From Robiginitomaculum sp. (GTDB lineage: Bacteria; Pseudomonadota; Alphaproteobacteria; Caulobacterales; Maricaulaceae), in contig JAJFFS010000001.1 in the NCBI GenBank assembly GCA_021776515.1, positions 1-61,223 of the forward strand: a stretch of 61,223 nucleotides of DNA, written 5' to 3'. Positions 1 to 7,061 of the stretch are shown here, piece after piece. Under the pieces are notes generated by a model. The model ran no database searches. It saw only the letters and a list, made by a program, of their open reading frames with translations, and was not told the origin of the DNA. The position numbers and the translations under genes were made by a program. Positions within the stretch are counted from its first letter, which is position 1; each line of letters starts with the position of its first letter.

Positions 1-90
1 GGACTACCCGCCTCTGCCTGCTTCAATATGCCGATGATCTGGCTGTCCGAATATCGTGACTTCTTCATGGATGAATCTCCTCAATCCTGA
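1..90 (+). CDS. C-terminal end of an unidentified protein (partial)
   Basis: An open frame enters from the left edge and ends at TGA 88-90, giving a 29-residue tail with the stretch NMPMIWLSEYRDFF. It is too short to assign. It converges on the minus-strand genes that follow, and the base composition rises just here, so it may be a chromosomal or neighbouring-module gene next to the mobile element. A random open frame cannot be excluded, because no start is visible. Confidence 0.3.
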   Translation, partial: GLPASACFNMPMIWLSEYRDFFMDESPQS

Positions 91-135
91 TTAAGAGAAA
101 ATTCTACTTATGAGCACCCTTAAAATACGGGGGTA

Positions 136-489
136 TTACCATTTCCATGTAAAAACTTGGCCTAATACTGAAGCCATAATAATGTGTACTACTTCATCAC
201 GACTTGGTTTTCTATAATTATCATGTTGAGCTAAAGCTACAGGGCTTCGTGCTATAACATCATTATTTTTAAGTCCCCTTATCACAACTGCTGGAAAATT
301 CGCTCTAACTTTAAATTTCGTCAAACACGACCTTATAGAAATTGGTAGGCTTTGTGAAAGAACAGCACCCATTTTTGCTAAATCAAGTACATTCGAATGT
401 GGATATTTATGATAGAAACTATCAACTAGCTGTTCGACCAAATCACACTCACTTCGTGTAAGATTAAGTATCATTACTTCATTTACCAT
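136..489 (-). CDS. Truncated or stand-alone N-terminal domain of an asparagine-oxygenase-like protein
   Basis: The 117-residue product resembles only the N-terminal part of clavaminate-synthase-like Fe(II)/2-oxoglutarate oxygenases of the AsnO/VioC type: a segment AVVIRGL near the middle and a C-terminal SVLGQVFTWKW. Full-length enzymes have about 330 residues and bind iron through an HxE...H triad; none of that is present, so catalysis is not expected. I chose the ATG at 487-489 because it overlaps the stop of the upstream LuxR-type gene by 11 bp, which suggests translational coupling; an ATG ten codons earlier is possible. After TAA 136-138 no frame continues the family sequence, so this is either a decayed gene at a junction or a small single-domain protein. 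The family link is by eye. Confidence 0.5.
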   Translation of the reverse strand: MVNEVMILNLTRSECDLVEQLVDSFYHKYPHSNVLDLAKMGAVLSQSLPISIRSCLTKFKVRANFPAVVIRGLKNNDVIARSPVALAQHDNYRKPSRDEVVHIIMASVLGQVFTWKW

Positions 490-856: not shown

Positions 857-2224
857 TCAACCTAATGACAATTCATATTGCTGCTTACGCTTTTTGTCCT
901 GCTCCCGTCTCATTTGAGCGCGAGTTTTTTCTTGCCCTAGTCTCGATGATAACCTTTCAAAACTCCTTGCCTCGCGCCTTTCCTGCTTGGTTATCAAATC
1001 CGAATAACGGTTTAAGCGCATAAGCTCTTGCTTCTGACTTTGTGCCAATAGCTGTTTTTCAGTTGTATGTTCCTGCACTCGCCACCTATCTTGATGAGCA
1101 TATTTCCAACGTAGAAATAGTTCATAGCCAAGAACAGCTTGAATATTTTTAGTTATTCCTTGCGGTTTCTTCTTATATCTCTGTCGTAAGATTTTTGCTT
1201 CTTCGGCTCGCTGTTTTTTCAAGAGCAAATCAACTTCATCACGGTGTCGTATTTTCGCAAATGTAATTTTCCGTTTTAATGTCTTTCTCCTACTTTCTGC
1301 AAGGCGGTCAATACGAGCCGCCATACCTCTAAGCTTTCGATAAAGTTTTTGTTCCCGTGTAAGATCAATACGGGTTTTTACTTTTGGCTGTTTCTTCGTA
1401 GCCGCCTTAATTATACGCTGCTGTTCTTTGGCTTCTTCTACTGATGGGTAGCTTTCTAGTAGACTTAAACGCTGTTTAACCTGCCTAGTTTTTACCCCAT
1501 CAATTTGCCGTGCCAAAGAATGTATTTGATTGTCTCTATCGACAACAACAAAGGCTCGGCGTTGCCCTTGGGCAATAATGTAGCCTTGATTACTCATAGC
1601 AATAGCAAACTCTTTTTTATCACTATGCTCATGCCATAATTTGGTAATGCTATTTTTGCGAGCTTCCACACTGTCAACATCACAGTTCTTACCTTGTGAC
1701 TTGCCAAGGTCATAGCCTTGTTTTCTGGCTTCTATTCGATCTTTACCCGTCTTGTAATAAATTTGTAGATCAAAGGTTTTTGCTAGTTCTTTAGTGCAAG
1801 TACGAAGATGGTAATGGTCGTTAGACATGTGAATAGCTCTTAATTCTCGCCCATCGATTCTGCTCCACACCACATGACAATGCTTGCGAAGTTCACCATC
1901 ACTTTCACCAATCTTCTCATGGAAGATTATTGCTCTAGGTTGCCCCGACAAACCAAGCTTATTTTCAATATGGTCAATGGCATATTGCCATTCTTTTTCT
2001 GTCCAATCTCGTTGTGATTTATCAGGGTTGATAGAAAGAGAATAAAAGCCTTTTTTGCAGTTGGTGTTATCTGCGATAACTTCCCACTCGCGGAAAGCTT
2101 CATAAATATTATCGCTTGCCGAACCAGAGAGGGAATGAACGATTATTTTTTGATTGTCTACTTCGTTAGACAGGTGCAACGCCAAATCAACCGCACCACG
2201 TCTTTGTGATCCTTTCAAGATCAT
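857..2224 (-). CDS. Relaxase / mobilization nuclease
   Basis: Predicted relaxase of 455 residues that would nick oriT and pilot the strand during mobilization. The N-terminal about 160 residues form the nuclease domain: a start MILKGSQRRGA typical of a rhizobial-type relaxase family, FYSLSINP near residue 60 and the metal-binding histidines in KHCHVVWSRID (H115, H117). The catalytic tyrosine is probably Y61, but this is only inferred. The C-terminal two thirds is rich in Arg, Lys, Gln and Glu, as expected for a helical DNA-binding tail. The ATG overlaps the mobC stop by 4 bp. No coupling protein or type IV secretion gene is visible, so transfer would depend on a helper. Confidence 0.85.
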   Translation of the reverse strand: MILKGSQRRGAVDLALHLSNEVDNQKIIVHSLSGSASDNIYEAFREWEVIADNTNCKKGFYSLSINPDKSQRDWTEKEWQYAIDHIENKLGLSGQPRAIIFHEKIGESDGELRKHCHVVWSRIDGRELRAIHMSNDHYHLRTCTKELAKTFDLQIYYKTGKDRIEARKQGYDLGKSQGKNCDVDSVEARKNSITKLWHEHSDKKEFAIAMSNQGYIIAQGQRRAFVVVDRDNQIHSLARQIDGVKTRQVKQRLSLLESYPSVEEAKEQQRIIKAATKKQPKVKTRIDLTREQKLYRKLRGMAARIDRLAESRRKTLKRKITFAKIRHRDEVDLLLKKQRAEEAKILRQRYKKKPQGITKNIQAVLGYELFLRWKYAHQDRWRVQEHTTEKQLLAQSQKQELMRLNRYSDLITKQERREARSFERLSSRLGQEKTRAQMRREQDKKRKQQYELSLG

Positions 2225-2637
2225 GGCTTACGGCCTAGAGCCACAAAGCATTGATCGCGGGTGGCTAATATCTGCCTGTGAAGCGAGTCCAGCTTTTCAC
2301 GCTGTGGTGTGGTTTCTTCGGTAATGGCAAACAAGGTCGCAAAGGCTTTGAGGTCATCAGCAAGTCGTCCAAGACAAGCCAAGACCAAAGCAATTTGTTT
2401 GCCCTCGCTTAACGAGACGCGCTTGCGCCGAGAGGCCGTATTATCTCCGCCAGCAAGTGATGCATCACGCATATAGGCACTTAGGCTGGTGCGCCTGACA
2501 TCGGCTTTATGGCTGATGGTTTGTTTTTCACTGTCGTTTAAGCGCACGGTTACTGACCTGTTGCGCTGACGGGTTTCTGAACCACTATTCGTGATCTTGC
2601 CAGAACCCGGAAGTTTGGGTTTGGTGGTCATATTCAA
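2221..2637 (-). CDS. mobC: MobC-like relaxosome accessory protein
   Basis: A 138-residue basic protein with a ribbon-helix-helix-like segment at about residues 28-62 (VTVRLNDSEK...ADVRRTSLSAYMRDASLAG), typical of MobC-type accessory proteins that bind oriT and help the relaxase open the strands. It precedes the relaxase with a 4-bp overlap, the usual mobCA arrangement, and its start faces the hairpin-rich non-coding block at 2638-2860, the expected place for oriT. The C-terminal half has a helix-forming segment that could mediate contact with the relaxase. A generic RHH regulator is the alternative, less likely given its neighbour. Confidence 0.77.
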   Translation of the reverse strand: MNMTTKPKLPGSGKITNSGSETRQRNRSVTVRLNDSEKQTISHKADVRRTSLSAYMRDASLAGGDNTASRRKRVSLSEGKQIALVLACLGRLADDLKAFATLFAITEETTPQREKLDSLHRQILATRDQCFVALGRKP

Positions 2638-3048
2638 TTTTCCTGATTGGGGGTTGCTTTAACCCTCATCCGCTTACGTTCCGCTTTGCAGAACTACAGC
2701 GCGACAAGCATTTTGGTGCTTTGTCGAACGTCAAATTACGGCTCGATGCCTGTTTGACGTTATATGGGGAGGGATCCAATGGGAGGGGCAAAGCCCACTC
2801 CCTTGGCAAGGGCGCGGTAACACCGCGCATACCTTGCACCTAAACTTAACTTACCAGAGGTGAAGCTATACCTGCAACATAAATACGCGCAGCCTGATAC
2901 TGTTGCGCAACTTCGAACCGGATTCGTTTATTTATCTCAACGGGATAGCATGAAGCGTCATGACCCGTTTGCCCGGATCATGACGCAAAATTCGATTTAT
3001 TCAAAAAATCCCTTAGGATATTCGGTAATGAGCAATGGGTCTTCTATT
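2638..3048. other. Non-coding block of the mobile element, probable oriT region
   Basis: About 410 bp without a supportable gene lie between mobC and the small membrane gene to its right. The mobC-proximal part holds strong inverted repeats (2781-2837) and must contain the mobCA promoter. The rest is AT-rich, with no recognised domain in any frame. Confidence 0.5.
2781..2837. other. oriT: Candidate oriT: tandem inverted repeats beside mobC
   Basis: Two hairpins stand side by side. The first (2781-2802) pairs GGGAGGGGC with GCCCACTCCC around AAA. The second (2806-2837) pairs GCAAGG then GCGCGGT with ACCGCGC then CCTTGC, with loop AAC and an ATA bulge. Such a hairpin next to mobC is the classic oriT layout. 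The flank ATACCTTGC loosely resembles the YATCCTGY nick region of MOBP-type origins; the nick position is a guess. Confidence 0.42.
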
Positions 3049-3312
3049 CTAAGATGAAAAAAGAAGAGCGGATAAAACTATAAGTATTATTATAATTGTT
3101 ATTTCTTTGCCTGTTTCATAATTACCAGTACTCCCCGTTCCGATATAAGAAATAAGAGCAAATAAGCCATTAATAACTAGGATTGCTGGTATAAAAAAAA
3201 GAGCAGAAGTCCAATCACCTGTAGCCAGCAACACTAGTGTTACAGACCCGACTGTTAAATACATCAATGTTTTTACTACAACATTTAAAAGACGACCCTT
3301 TATGCTAGACAT
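3049..3312 (-). CDS. Small hydrophobic membrane protein, unknown function
   Basis: I do not recognise this 87-residue protein. It shows three likely membrane segments (about residues 12-30, 34-56 and 69-86), with a short polar loop around TGSTGNYETGKE and almost no soluble part. The ATG at 3312 has a GGGGT-rich stretch a few bases upstream that could serve as ribosome binding site. It lies 72 bp downstream of the next membrane gene on the same strand and may be co-transcribed with it. Both would be expressed leftward from the side of the putative invertible segment at 3766-3910. Conjugation entry exclusion or an element-specific envelope function are possibilities only. Confidence 0.6.
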   Translation of the reverse strand: MSSIKGRLLNVVVKTLMYLTVGSVTLVLLATGDWTSALFFIPAILVINGLFALISYIGTGSTGNYETGKEITIIIILIVLSALLFSS

Positions 3313-3384
3313 AGTAATACCCCGGTATCTCCAATTGTTTCATTTTATATCTCCCTGAATTATTATGTGAGTTGGTTATTGGCC

Positions 3385-3747
3385 TCATTGCCGTGCTTGA
3401 ACATTTCGCGCCATGTCAATTATAGCCTTAGCTGATTGCGCCAGCATGATGATGACAAGACCAGCTATGGTAAGGCGAATGATCGGTGGTATTTCAAAAG
3501 AGCTAATCTGGCTTGGGTTTTTGGAAAGTTGAGTGAGGTAATCAAAGCCAATATTGGTGAACCAATTGGGCATGTTGATGAAAGCCCAGCCATATGAGAG
3601 CGAATACAAAGCCCACAATGTAAGCGCCGTTCCAACAAGCACCATTGCGCCGCCAACCAGAGTAACAATCACGGTTAGTGCATAGCTAAAATCATAAACA
3701 TTCTTGCTTGGCCTTACAAAAGATGCCGCTTTGGTTTGACTGCCCAT
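3385..3747 (-). CDS. Two-helix membrane protein, unknown function
   Basis: A 120-residue protein with a short cytoplasmic N-terminus, a long hydrophobic segment (about residues 23-52), a polar loop of some 35 residues (NWFTNIGFDYLTQLSKNPSQ) and a second membrane segment (about 86-106). No family is recognised. The start codon at 3745-3747 has an AGGAGCG ribosome binding site. Only 18 bp separate the start from the left copy of the 23-bp inverted site (3766-3788), so its promoter must overlap or lie beyond that site. It could be an output gene of a recombinase-controlled switch; this is inference. Confidence 0.62.
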   Translation of the reverse strand: MGSQTKAASFVRPSKNVYDFSYALTVIVTLVGGAMVLVGTALTLWALYSLSYGWAFINMPNWFTNIGFDYLTQLSKNPSQISSFEIPPIIRLTIAGLVIIMLAQSAKAIIDMARNVQARQ

Positions 3748-3765
3748 TTGATCGCTCCTGATTTG

Positions 3766-3788
3766 CCCAATTGCTTTATGAAAGTTGG
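3766..3788 (-). repeat. Left copy of a 23-bp inverted recombinase-like site
   Basis: Read on the minus strand it begins CCAACTTTCATAAA and ends AATTGGG. It matches the copy at 3888-3910 at 20 of 23 positions, in opposite orientation. Each copy has short inverted arms (CCAACT...AATTGG here) around a 10-bp centre, like tyrosine-recombinase core sites. Confidence 0.6.
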
Positions 3789-3887
3789 GATAGGCTACTA
3801 GCTCTGGGCTATCGCTTGATTTTGCCTTTCACTTTTTTGTGTTCGCCTTGCCAAATCGCTTGACCAGTTAGACCTTTACATATTATA
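3789..3887. other. Putative invertible 99-bp segment with a rightward promoter
   Basis: The segment lies between two inverted 23-bp sites and directly upstream of the tyrosine recombinase gene. Near its right end a -35-like TTGACC (3860-3865) and a -10-like TATTAT (3881-3886) face rightward, but with a short 15-bp spacer. A 9-bp direct repeat ATCGCTTGA occurs at 3811 and 3855. Inversion would point the promoter at the membrane genes on the left. Inversion itself is inferred, not seen. Confidence 0.4.
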
Positions 3888-3910
3888 CCAACTTTCATAA
3901 AATAGTTGGG
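3888..3910 (+). repeat. Right copy of a 23-bp inverted recombinase-like site
   Basis: CCAACTTTCATAAA followed by ATAGTTGGG. The 6-bp arms CCAACT/AGTTGG are perfect, and an extended 12-bp arm comparison gives 9 matches. It is the inverted partner of 3766-3788 and lies about 100 bp upstream of the recombinase start. Confidence 0.6.
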
Positions 3911-4009
3911 TTATTACTCTCGCTCTGATAGGGTTCAATAAATAAGAAAGGTAATCTGTGCGAAGCAAGAAATTGATCAATAATATTGTGGGGTCGTGTG
4001 GTTAGAAAA

Positions 4010-4609
4010 ATGCCTTTAGCTAATCCCAATCATCCTAAAAAGGGTTCCTCTATCAAGGTTGAGCCCATTCGTGATTCCAAAGATATAAAAGCAATTAAAA
4101 AGCACCTTAAAGATCACCCTCGTGATCTTTGTTTATTTAGCTTTGGGATTAATACTGCCTACCGCGCTAGTGAAATTTTATCTCTTACCATAGGCCAGAT
4201 TGAGCATTTACAAGCTGGTGATCGTTTAGAGATCAAACAGCCAAAGAGTGGTAAGTACCGCGCCATCACACTGAACAAGACGGTGGTTGCCGCGATGCAG
4301 AACTGGCTACAGGTTCACCCCGATAAGCGTAGTGATGCGCCATTATTTATCTCTCAGCGCACAGCTAAGGCTTTAAGCGTCTCGACGCTCAATAATATGG
4401 TCAAAAAGTGGTGCCGGAGCATTGGCCTTAAGGGCAATTACGGCTCGCATTCCATGCGCAAAACATGGGGGTATCATCAAAGGGTTAGAAACAAACAACC
4501 CATTCCCTTGCTCATGGTTGCCTTTGGACACACCAGCCAAGGCCAGACGCTTGATTATCTCTGCATTCAAGATGATGAAATCAGGGATTTGTACGGGATG
4601 GAGTTGTAG
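4010..4609 (+). CDS. Short (FimB-sized) tyrosine recombinase
   Basis: A 199-residue tyrosine recombinase that consists almost only of the catalytic domain. All active-site residues can be placed: R52 (NTAYRASEI), K79 or K82 (beta-hairpin KSGKYR), H147-x-x-R150 (SHSMRK), H174 (FGHTS) and the nucleophile Y183 (LDYLCI). It lacks the usual N-terminal core-binding domain, as do FimB and FimE, invertases of about 200 residues. I prefer the ATG at 4010; a TTG eight codons upstream is in frame. Two inverted 23-bp sites lie just upstream, so local DNA inversion is a reasonable role. Excision, or resolution of element dimers, is the alternative. It ends 3 bp before the stop of the convergent antitoxin gene. 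Confidence 0.85.
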   Translation: MPLANPNHPKKGSSIKVEPIRDSKDIKAIKKHLKDHPRDLCLFSFGINTAYRASEILSLTIGQIEHLQAGDRLEIKQPKSGKYRAITLNKTVVAAMQNWLQVHPDKRSDAPLFISQRTAKALSVSTLNNMVKKWCRSIGLKGNYGSHSMRKTWGYHQRVRNKQPIPLLMVAFGHTSQGQTLDYLCIQDDEIRDLYGMEL

Positions 4610-4612
4610 TTT

Positions 4613-4906
4613 TTATACCAGTTCAAAACGTAAGCTACGCCCAATCGCATTAGCCGCTTTAGCCAATGTTCCTAATGTTACGCCTTGGTGCTCCGGGTCA
4701 AGCAACCGATCAAGAGCGGCCCTTGATGTTTGCATACGGTTTGCCATGGCAGTTTTAGAGAGCTTCTCATTCTTCATATGTTCGGCAATTTGACGTGAAA
4801 GCACGGCCTTAATGGCAGATTGCGTAACGTCTTCGTAAATCCCCTCATCATGTAAGAAATCCTCAAATGACGAACCCATATGTTTGTTTTTATGTTTTTT
4901 AGCCAT
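4613..4906 (-). CDS. higA: HigA-type antitoxin, XRE helix-turn-helix
   Basis: Antitoxin of a type II pair, 97 residues. The C-terminal part carries a Cro/C1-type HTH (LSKTAMANRMQTSRAALDRLLDP, about residues 50-72), followed by VTLGTLAKAANAIG, a helix seen in HigA-like antitoxins. The chosen ATG (4904-4906) overlaps the toxin stop by 8 bp, which fits translational coupling; an ATG ten codons earlier would lie deep inside the toxin gene. As in other host-inhibition-of-growth pairs the toxin gene comes first. HigA presumably binds the palindrome in front of the toxin gene and represses the operon. Confidence 0.8.
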   Translation of the reverse strand: MAKKHKNKHMGSSFEDFLHDEGIYEDVTQSAIKAVLSRQIAEHMKNEKLSKTAMANRMQTSRAALDRLLDPEHQGVTLGTLAKAANAIGRSLRFELV

Positions 4907-5261
4907 TGTCCAATTCCTTTTGTCTTTTTGCCGCAAGTTTTAAATCTCGGTCAGGCGTTTTTTGTGTTTTCTTTTTTATGGCATGGAGCAAAACCATTTT
5001 ACTCTCATGAACACAAAAAAACACCCTTGCGATATTGCCCCTCTCAAGTTTTGATCTAACTTCCCAAAGTCCGGAATAGTTAGAAATTGACTTACAAAGC
5101 GGCATTCCAATTGGCCATGAAAACTCACAATCGCGAATATCGTGGCCTATTAATTTTTGATCAGCGAGAGATAAATCGTCTTTTAGCCATTCTCTCACAG
5201 GTTCTTTTCCGCTTTTAAGCCGAAAGAATATTGCGGGTAGTTTCTTAAGGCTTTTAGTCAT
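4899..5261 (-). CDS. higB: HigB-type toxin (RelE/ParE fold, Gp49-like)
   Basis: A 120-residue member of the phage-derived Gp49-like/HigB group, ribosome-dependent mRNA interferases with a RelE fold. Diagnostic stretches are EWLKDD near the start, GLWEVRSKL in the middle, NIARVFFCVHESKMVLLHAIKKK, and the C-terminal KTPDRDLKLAAKRQKE, where basic residues would contact RNA. The start codon lies at the -10 end of the predicted promoter with no ribosome binding site, so the transcript may be leaderless. The pair probably stabilises the mobile element after loss. The exact RNase specificity cannot be read from the sequence. Confidence 0.82.
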   Translation of the reverse strand: MTKSLKKLPAIFFRLKSGKEPVREWLKDDLSLADQKLIGHDIRDCEFSWPIGMPLCKSISNYSGLWEVRSKLERGNIARVFFCVHESKMVLLHAIKKKTQKTPDRDLKLAAKRQKELDNG

Positions 5262-5295: not shown

Positions 5296-5409
5296 GAAAT
5301 TTTTGATTTAGGGTCTCCCGATAAAAACTGTGCGCAAGGCACGTTAGATTCTAGCGCCGATTCCACCATTATGATAAAATAGCTTATCCTAAGCAGAAAG
5401 CAGGTCTGA

Positions 5410-7061
<1,652 letters not shown>

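Follow-up and report, generated by a model that had tools for sequence, protein, structure and literature searches.

A probable site-specific DNA inversion switch beside a small tyrosine recombinase gene on a putative integrative mobilizable element of Robiginitomaculum sp.

The window analysed here, i.e. the whole stretch of 61,223 nucleotides at the start of contig JAJFFS010000001.1, contains a pair of inverted sites next to the gene of a small tyrosine recombinase. The pair probably belongs to a switch that works by site-specific DNA inversion and sits on a putative integrative mobilizable element; it would flip a segment with a promoter-like motif and make the expression of an envelope protein phase-variable. 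The original prediction, that this 199-residue enzyme may invert the enclosed 99 bp, is supported by site pairs found in related loci and by the inversion of the equivalent segment between two of them, L012 and L013. The features discussed below are the following.

857-2224, minus strand: relaxase (PF03432), mobilization gene of the carrier (857-2637 together with the NikA-like gene)
2221-2637, minus strand: NikA-like protein (PF21983), mobilization gene of the carrier
3049-3312, minus strand: second small hydrophobic protein, 87 aa, on the same strand as the 120-aa protein and possibly co-transcribed with it
3385-3747, minus strand: divergent 120-aa membrane protein, which the switch is predicted to control; its start codon is 28 bp away from the left spacer
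3767-3788, plus strand: left recombination site (very likely); outer arm 3767-3774, spacer 3775-3780 (TTTATG), inner arm 3781-3788
3789-3887, no strand: predicted invertible segment, the 99 bp between the sites, based on the inverted site pair and on L012 and L013, in which the equivalent segment lies naturally in opposite orientations
3860-3886, plus strand: promoter-like TTGACC-N15-TATTAT facing the recombinase; same motif in L002-L008, relaxed form in L019, L136 and L137
3888-3909, minus strand: right recombination site (very likely); inner arm 3888-3895, spacer 3896-3901 (CATAAA, i.e. TTTATG on the minus strand), outer arm 3902-3909
3906-3934, plus strand: possible second promoter, TTGGGT-N17-TAGGGT, lying beyond the segment; most of its first hexamer falls within the right outer arm
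3958-4005, plus strand: possible 15-codon leader peptide with a GTG start, its stop just past the candidate GTG start of the recombinase
4010-4609, plus strand: small tyrosine recombinase, 199 aa from ATG 4010 (PF00589, E 2.8e-21, residues 24-184)
5410-7023, plus strand: large serine recombinase (PF00239, PF13408), probable integrase of the element, running into tRNA-Thr 6986-7061

The inverted sites and their counterparts in related loci

Two inverted copies of a site of about 23 bp had been noticed at 3766-3788 and 3888-3910. Read from the sequence, the former agrees with the reverse complement of the latter at 20 of 23 positions, and 99 bp are enclosed. The similarity extends to 27 nt (3766-3792/3884-3910, 85% complementary). 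The inverted-repeat score of the pair is 18.2, against a maximum of 15.0 and a mean of 10.8 in 200 dinucleotide shuffles of region 3300-4700 (1401 bases), and is the highest in the window among inverted pairs 40-300 bp apart. The next-best pair, 49495-49525/49585-49615 (score 17.8), was discarded as an apparent repeat, judged by eye, inside coding sequence. Within the 2.57-Mb assembly, exact copies of the 14-mer TTTATGAAAGTTGG are confined to these two positions. The short inverted arms of each copy were recognized as described, and the centre, previously taken as 10 bp, is better read as a 6-bp asymmetric spacer (3775-3780 and 3896-3901, spacer starts 121 bp apart) flanked by 8-bp arms; arm positions matching the palindrome of their own site are 5/8 on the left and 7/8 on the right. 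Two inverted sites with an identical crossover region, as belong to promoter inversion switches, are present. Positions 3767-3788 and 3888-3909 are very likely real recombination sites, and their inner arms should move with the predicted invertible segment.

Related loci were collected by scanning genome contigs, which yielded 38 loci, and by genome searches, which added more; the upstream region was examined in detail for 25 of them, namely 18 of the 38, the window itself, L131-L134, L136 and L137. Those dropped from the 38 are L010 (recombinase beginning at a contig end), L017 and L037-L039 (partial matches) and L022-L036 (26-38% identity); within this last group no inverted pair scored above 13.2, except that L022 lies too near a contig end for scoring. 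L041 and L042 duplicate L003 and L004, L131 duplicates L011, L138-L149 lie in genomes already represented, and L135, with no open frame carrying the motif used, was left out.

The search was then made blind to the spacers, by scoring the arms only (consensus CAACTTT-N6-AAAGTTG) and taking the two best places at least 40 bp apart within 420 bp upstream. Their distance is 120-124 bp in 15 of the 25 loci (one being the duplicate L131), and all six spacer bases are identical in inverted register in each of the 15 pairs. The other ten loci, which include L004 and L137 with their deviating arms, share 1-3 of the 6 spacer bases. All together, 16 distinct pair loci are recognized among the 25: 14 from the blind procedure, plus L004 and L137, found by fitted sites or by hand. 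These 16 were located with hand-entered spacers, so that their 16/16 agreement is partly by construction and the blind procedure is the unbiased test. Automatic centring gave 6/6 for 14 of the 16; L006 and L137 fell into a wrong register and were corrected by hand, and L021 produced a spurious 6/6 with poor arms.

Spacer starts are 120-124 bp apart across the 16 pair loci, which carry 13 distinct spacers. Between near relatives the spacer changes in both sites together: TTTATG in the window and L002 versus TTTATA in L003, TTCTGA in L006 versus TTCAGA in L008, TACCTA in L012 versus TATCTA in L013. Because the arms are nearly palindromic, the binding of a repressor gives no reason for identical inverted asymmetric spacers, nor for their joint change. 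Identical inverted spacers that differ between loci fit crossover sites and not operators.

The check whether the sites always accompany the recombinase, suggested with the original prediction, gave a divided result. The pair is carried by 16 distinct loci of the 25, but no second core site with the same spacer was found by the blind procedure in six plasmid relatives of the same clade (0-3/6 spacer bases, the arm consensus fitting two of them poorly); this recombinase therefore does not belong to a switch in every case. L009, L133 and L134, also of this clade, have no proper pair. By eye, the plasmid relatives L123-L128 show, upstream of the recombinase, one palindromic core and a wider-spaced imperfect inverted element near the gene, which is possibly the ancestral arrangement. 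Eighteen (L043-L060) of 80 viral-contig loci were inspected and are kept out of the counts. Inverted similarity scores of 14.0-14.8 were observed in four of them (L048, L049, L055 and L057); L055 (3792-3944) and L057 (5723-5871) show, upstream of the recombinase, a palindromic core and an apparent inverted half-site about 120 bp away, possibly an intermediate arrangement.

Orientation of the segment and direction of the promoter-like motifs

The expectation that relatives would carry the segment in either orientation was borne out by L012 and L013, where it is opposite: the interiors agree at 96 of 97 positions when one is inverted, versus 14 of 97 in direct comparison. By blastn, the flanks run in the same direction (84.6% identity on the left and 89.7% on the right, in adjoining pieces), and L012 5741-5891 aligns to L013 5892-5742 on the opposite strand, with 96% identity. 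Turning the segment in silico gave a best agreement of 164/171 bases, versus 80 without inversion. Any breakpoint between the first compared base, which is the limit of the scan, and exactly the inner edge of the spacer gives this best value; the inner half-sites therefore travelled with the segment, and an exchange within the spacer fits. To the right of the right site the ungapped comparison drifts (92/250) through length differences, and collinearity there is taken from blastn. By this comparison of two loci, inversion has been shown once in the recombinase family; flipping of the segment in the window's own genome is probable.

Both orientations occur in one of the three close groups with alignable interiors. 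In the other two a single orientation is shared, by the window, L002 and L003 and by L006 and L008, respectively; among the weaker alignments listed that exceed the shuffled maximum, every one is direct. The L012 and L013 regions are mostly 80-93% identical and lie in metagenome-assembled genomes titled as a gamma- and an alphaproteobacterium, reflecting either transfer or a binning error.

The promoter-like pair formed by TTGACC (3860) and TATTAT (3881), with a 15-bp spacer and facing the recombinase, was found as described. Its reading as a promoter is weak, because such matches are at chance level in the region: a standard scan (16-18 bp spacing) of positions 2600-4700 gave 4 promoter-like sites, against 4.0 in shuffles (sd 1.7). 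One of these four is an overlapping alternative in the same direction, TTTACA-N17-TAAAAT at 3875-3903. The strict motif TTGAC-N15-TANNAT points toward the recombinase in 8 of the 16 pair loci (the window and L002-L008) and in 11 when relaxed forms are admitted, and toward the left gene in none of the 16 by either count; it was not found in L011, L012, L013, L016 and L132. By a looser consensus score, a left-facing candidate ranks above the right-facing one in L005 and L011. The 15-bp spacing of the motif shared by eight loci is shorter than usual, and the motif may depend on assistance or have another nature. In 7 of the 16 pair loci an outer pair, TTGNNN-N17-TANNNT, lies on the right and begins within the right outer arm; none of the 16 has one on the left.

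This one-sidedness is the strongest point that the sequences raise against a freely flipping switch, which should show both directions. The sequenced state would be that in which the left gene is off, as a biased switch would give, and a model with plain operators predicts the same bias. The evidence of the spacers and of the natural inversion outweighs it.

The recombinase, its carrier and the genes on the left

The 199-residue, FimB-sized tyrosine recombinase of the original prediction was confirmed, with 199 aa from ATG 4010 and a match to PF00589; an in-frame GTG at 3998 may be its real start. Since the match begins at residue 24, the approximately 23 residues before it leave no room for a core-binding domain. 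R52, K79, H147, R150, H174 and Y183, which we take to be the catalytic residues, are invariant in 19 aligned sequences. Best scores are obtained with Xer-type models (XerA-type, 1.5e-15), FimB/FimE-type models being weak and all scores falling far below the cut-offs; the solved structures related by sequence include XerA (2.4e-14), a XerC-like protein, XerH and XerD. A possible leader similar to that at 3958-4005 can be read by eye in L002 and L003.

The phylogenetic tree groups all 16 pair loci in a single supported clade (26 rows, 100/98), the rest of which consists of six plasmid relatives, L009, L133, L134 and L131, the last labelled 'nopair' by the script even though it is L011. A single change between the pair rows and the 23 rows outside suffices, with weak support (72/57). 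Eight plasmid loci had been fetched; six entered both the tree and the blind procedure, L130 the tree only, and L129 neither. The relatives on cyanobacterial and other plasmids are 49-60% identical to the recombinase, and the phage matches (147 records) are all below 60% identity. Among sampled genomes, the recombinase is sparse: it was found in 3 of 137 of the family (E 1e-30) and, at E 1e-50, in 6 of 398 of the order, 2 of 385 of the class, 2 of 146 relatives of G452, 3 of 394 of the family of G861 and 1 of 99 relatives of G866; the window's genome is included in the family, order and class samples and G452 in the fourth, and the last two counts comprise known genomes only.

The carrier is a putative integrative mobilizable element, as judged from a relaxase, a NikA-like protein and a serine recombinase beside tRNA-Thr, its left end having been lost at a repeat-type contig end. 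The small tyrosine recombinase was considered as the integrase of the element, and this role is unlikely, given the serine recombinase at tRNA-Thr. Eight other contigs of the assembly carry copies of window positions 1-140 (97-100% identity), in four cases at the contig start, as expected of the end of an insertion sequence; this places the left end of the element outside the window. A 127-aa ORF at 136-519, apparently cut off beside this repeat, is similar to the N-terminal third of VioC/GntD-type hydroxylases. A second copy of the serine recombinase and tRNA-Thr end (G000:C3:255260-257012, 86% identical to window 5302-7055) perhaps marks a second related element. A Gp49-like and an HTH protein, convergent with the tyrosine recombinase (4613-5261) and with homologues near the recombinase of L010, are perhaps a toxin-antitoxin pair.

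Mobility genes also lie near the switch in other loci: a relaxase in L002, L004, L007, L016 and L019, a coupling protein in L004, L007 and L019, an ArdA-like protein in L003 and an arm-binding tyrosine integrase in L012. A separate integrase is found in three carriers, being a serine recombinase in the window and L004 and the tyrosine integrase just mentioned in L012. No mobility gene was found among the three tested neighbours of the switch in L006 and the one tested in L005.

In ten of the 16 pair loci (the window, L002, L003, L004, L006, L007, L008, L011, L019 and L136) the left gene begins 27-33 bp from the left spacer, which leaves almost no room for a separate promoter of that gene; the distance is 48-83 bp in L005, L012, L013, L016 and L137 and 162 bp in L132. 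These start codons were chosen by hand, and the gene is not adjacent in L005 (83 bp) and L132 (162 bp). A hydrophobic N-terminal segment, defined as a mean hydropathy of at least 1.6 over 13 residues within the first 45, is found in 16/16 left genes and in 56/233 control ORFs (Fisher p 6e-10), the p-value being only a guide because the starts are hand-chosen, the controls are mechanical ORFs (collected without L132, L136 and L137) and the contrast weakens at strict thresholds. The corresponding figures are 16/16 and 71/233 at 1.4, 14/16 and 47/233 at 1.8, 12/16 and 37/233 at 2.0, and 6/16 and 27/233 at 2.2. Many of these N-termini read, by eye, as signal peptides or lipoprotein signals.

The left genes are mutually unrelated, except for L006/L008 and L012/L013 (clustering without L132, L136 and L137), and none of the ten left-gene products tested scored above cut-off in Pfam. 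The 120-aa and 87-aa proteins of the window have no match in plasmids, Pfam, NCBIfam or PHROGs, and the former none in viral contigs; among 299 sampled genomes of the order it is found in one, its own. The position left of the switch is taken by this 120-aa membrane protein in the window, a 38-aa lipoprotein-like ORF in L002, a 117-aa lipoprotein-like protein in L004 and a 210-aa protein with a signal-like start in L003. L002 shares with the window a NikA-like protein (87.5% identical), the relaxase (52%) and the recombinase (94%), and L004 the relaxase (80%) and the serine recombinase (60%); in the L003 DNA compared, only the recombinase is common to both. The slot left of the switch thus holds different genes, predicted to be envelope-directed, in different elements. 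Control of the left gene by the orientation of the segment is probable.

Proposed mechanism, alternatives and known systems

In the proposed mechanism, the small tyrosine recombinase would bind the two inverted core sites, 121 bp apart, and strand exchange within the identical 6-bp spacers would flip the segment, as comparison shows for one pair of relatives and as is predicted for the window. In the orientation of the assembly the promoter-like motif points at the recombinase; after flipping, its direction would be toward the membrane-protein genes on the left, where 28 bp, including a ribosome-binding site, separate the start codon from the left spacer, presumably leaving little room for a promoter of their own. 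The outer promoter-like pair, whose -35 is shared with the right site, might keep the recombinase expressed in both states, and its overlap with that site might let the recombinase repress itself. An envelope protein introduced by a mobile element would thereby become phase-variable in its expression.

The sites could instead be plain operators, the recombinase binding both, looping the DNA and repressing its own promoter with no inversion. This would agree with a promoter-like motif that, where recognized, always points toward the recombinase, with a right site that overlaps the expected transcription start, and with the wider-spaced imperfect inverted element of the plasmid relatives, which seems, by eye, to lie over the recombinase promoter. 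Operators, however, need no identical asymmetric inverted spacer, and all 15 pairs found blind to the spacers have one, changing jointly in both sites; moreover, a real inversion separates L012 and L013. We therefore regard pure operators as improbable, and autorepression may well exist in addition to inversion.

A similarly low probability is given to a recombinase that serves mainly for dimer resolution or maintenance of the excised element, as the plasmid relatives may do, inversion being a by-product. The relatives at 49-60% identity on cyanobacterial and other plasmids, the single palindromic core seen by eye roughly 110-170 bp upstream in plasmid relatives, and the place of six of them inside the same supported clade (100/98) speak for it. 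Against it, the six plasmid loci yielded no second core carrying an identical spacer (the arm consensus being a poor fit for two, and weak inverted similarity, with scores of 12.4-13.6, appearing in 3/6), inverted sites at a fixed spacing lead to inversion and not to resolution, and the bias toward envelope genes on the left would be left unexplained. Slightly less improbable, yet still unlikely, is a locked relic in the window's genome, with a degenerate left outer arm and a segment that no longer flips. The arm matches of 5/8 on the left versus 7/8 on the right would suit such a relic, as would the single orientation of the window, L002 and L003; the two spacers are nevertheless identical and jointly different from those of L003, and the recombinase frame is open with all invariant residues present. 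An inversion switch is the probable explanation for the window.

A broader reading is nearly as likely as not: a portable phase-variation cassette, made of a minimal Xer-like recombinase and a 120-bp invertible promoter, with an exchangeable slot for envelope cargo in mobile elements of marine proteobacteria, and evolved from one-core plasmid recombinases through the acquisition of a second, inverted core. If this is true, mobilizable elements would equip their hosts with a heritable on/off decision about an envelope protein, ready for use, and by carrying different envelope genes in the switched slot related mobile elements would diversify host surfaces, e.g. toward phages, grazers or mating partners, without constant cost. 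The segment being short, its orientation states could easily be counted in existing sequence reads.

The type 1 fimbriae switch of E. coli is operated by FimB and FimE, recombinases of about 200 aa that invert a promoter between short inverted repeats and so control a surface product. The window recombinase resembles them in its size, 199 aa, and in having no separate N-terminal core-binding domain. It differs in scoring 21.8 and 19.7 bits against cut-offs of 221 and 222 (NCBIfam PRK09870/PRK09871), Xer-type models scoring better, and the switch differs in having a single recombinase beside its own segment, a segment of 99 bp and a putative mobilizable carrier. The catalytic domain is similar to those of XerC/XerD/XerA-type recombinases and plasmid resolvases, and arms around a 6-bp spacer recall dif-like sites. 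Unlike XerC and XerD, however, the protein has 199 aa and not two domains, and reaches 43.4 and 40.5 bits against equivalog cut-offs of 335.15 and 329.6; two inverted sites are present instead of the one of Xer systems. Simple tyrosine recombinases have been described as a core-binding plus a catalytic domain, in the portion of a survey available to us (PMC8138268), which does not deal with enzymes lacking the former.

In the open-licence literature searched, no description was found of this recombinase group, its hosts, the fixed geometry or the exchangeable envelope slot, nor of a proteobacterial mobilizable element with an on/off switch for an envelope protein. The general kind, an invertible promoter, is already known. 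The original statement that no such switch is known inside a mobile element was too strong, since integrative and conjugative elements (ICEs) of Bacteroidales contain invertible promoters with a neighbouring invertase, according to the parts of the report available to us (PMC8748976). As far as those parts describe them, they share with the present case a promoter (here a promoter-like motif) between inverted repeats, an adjoining invertase, the setting of a mobile element and the regulation, predicted for the window, of a variable gene. In comparison with the same parts, the system of the window is distinguished by mobilization genes on a proteobacterial element, a recombinase the size of a catalytic domain (about 200 aa), sites of 8-6-8 structure with locus-specific spacers, and divergent envelope genes in place of resistance or glycan genes.
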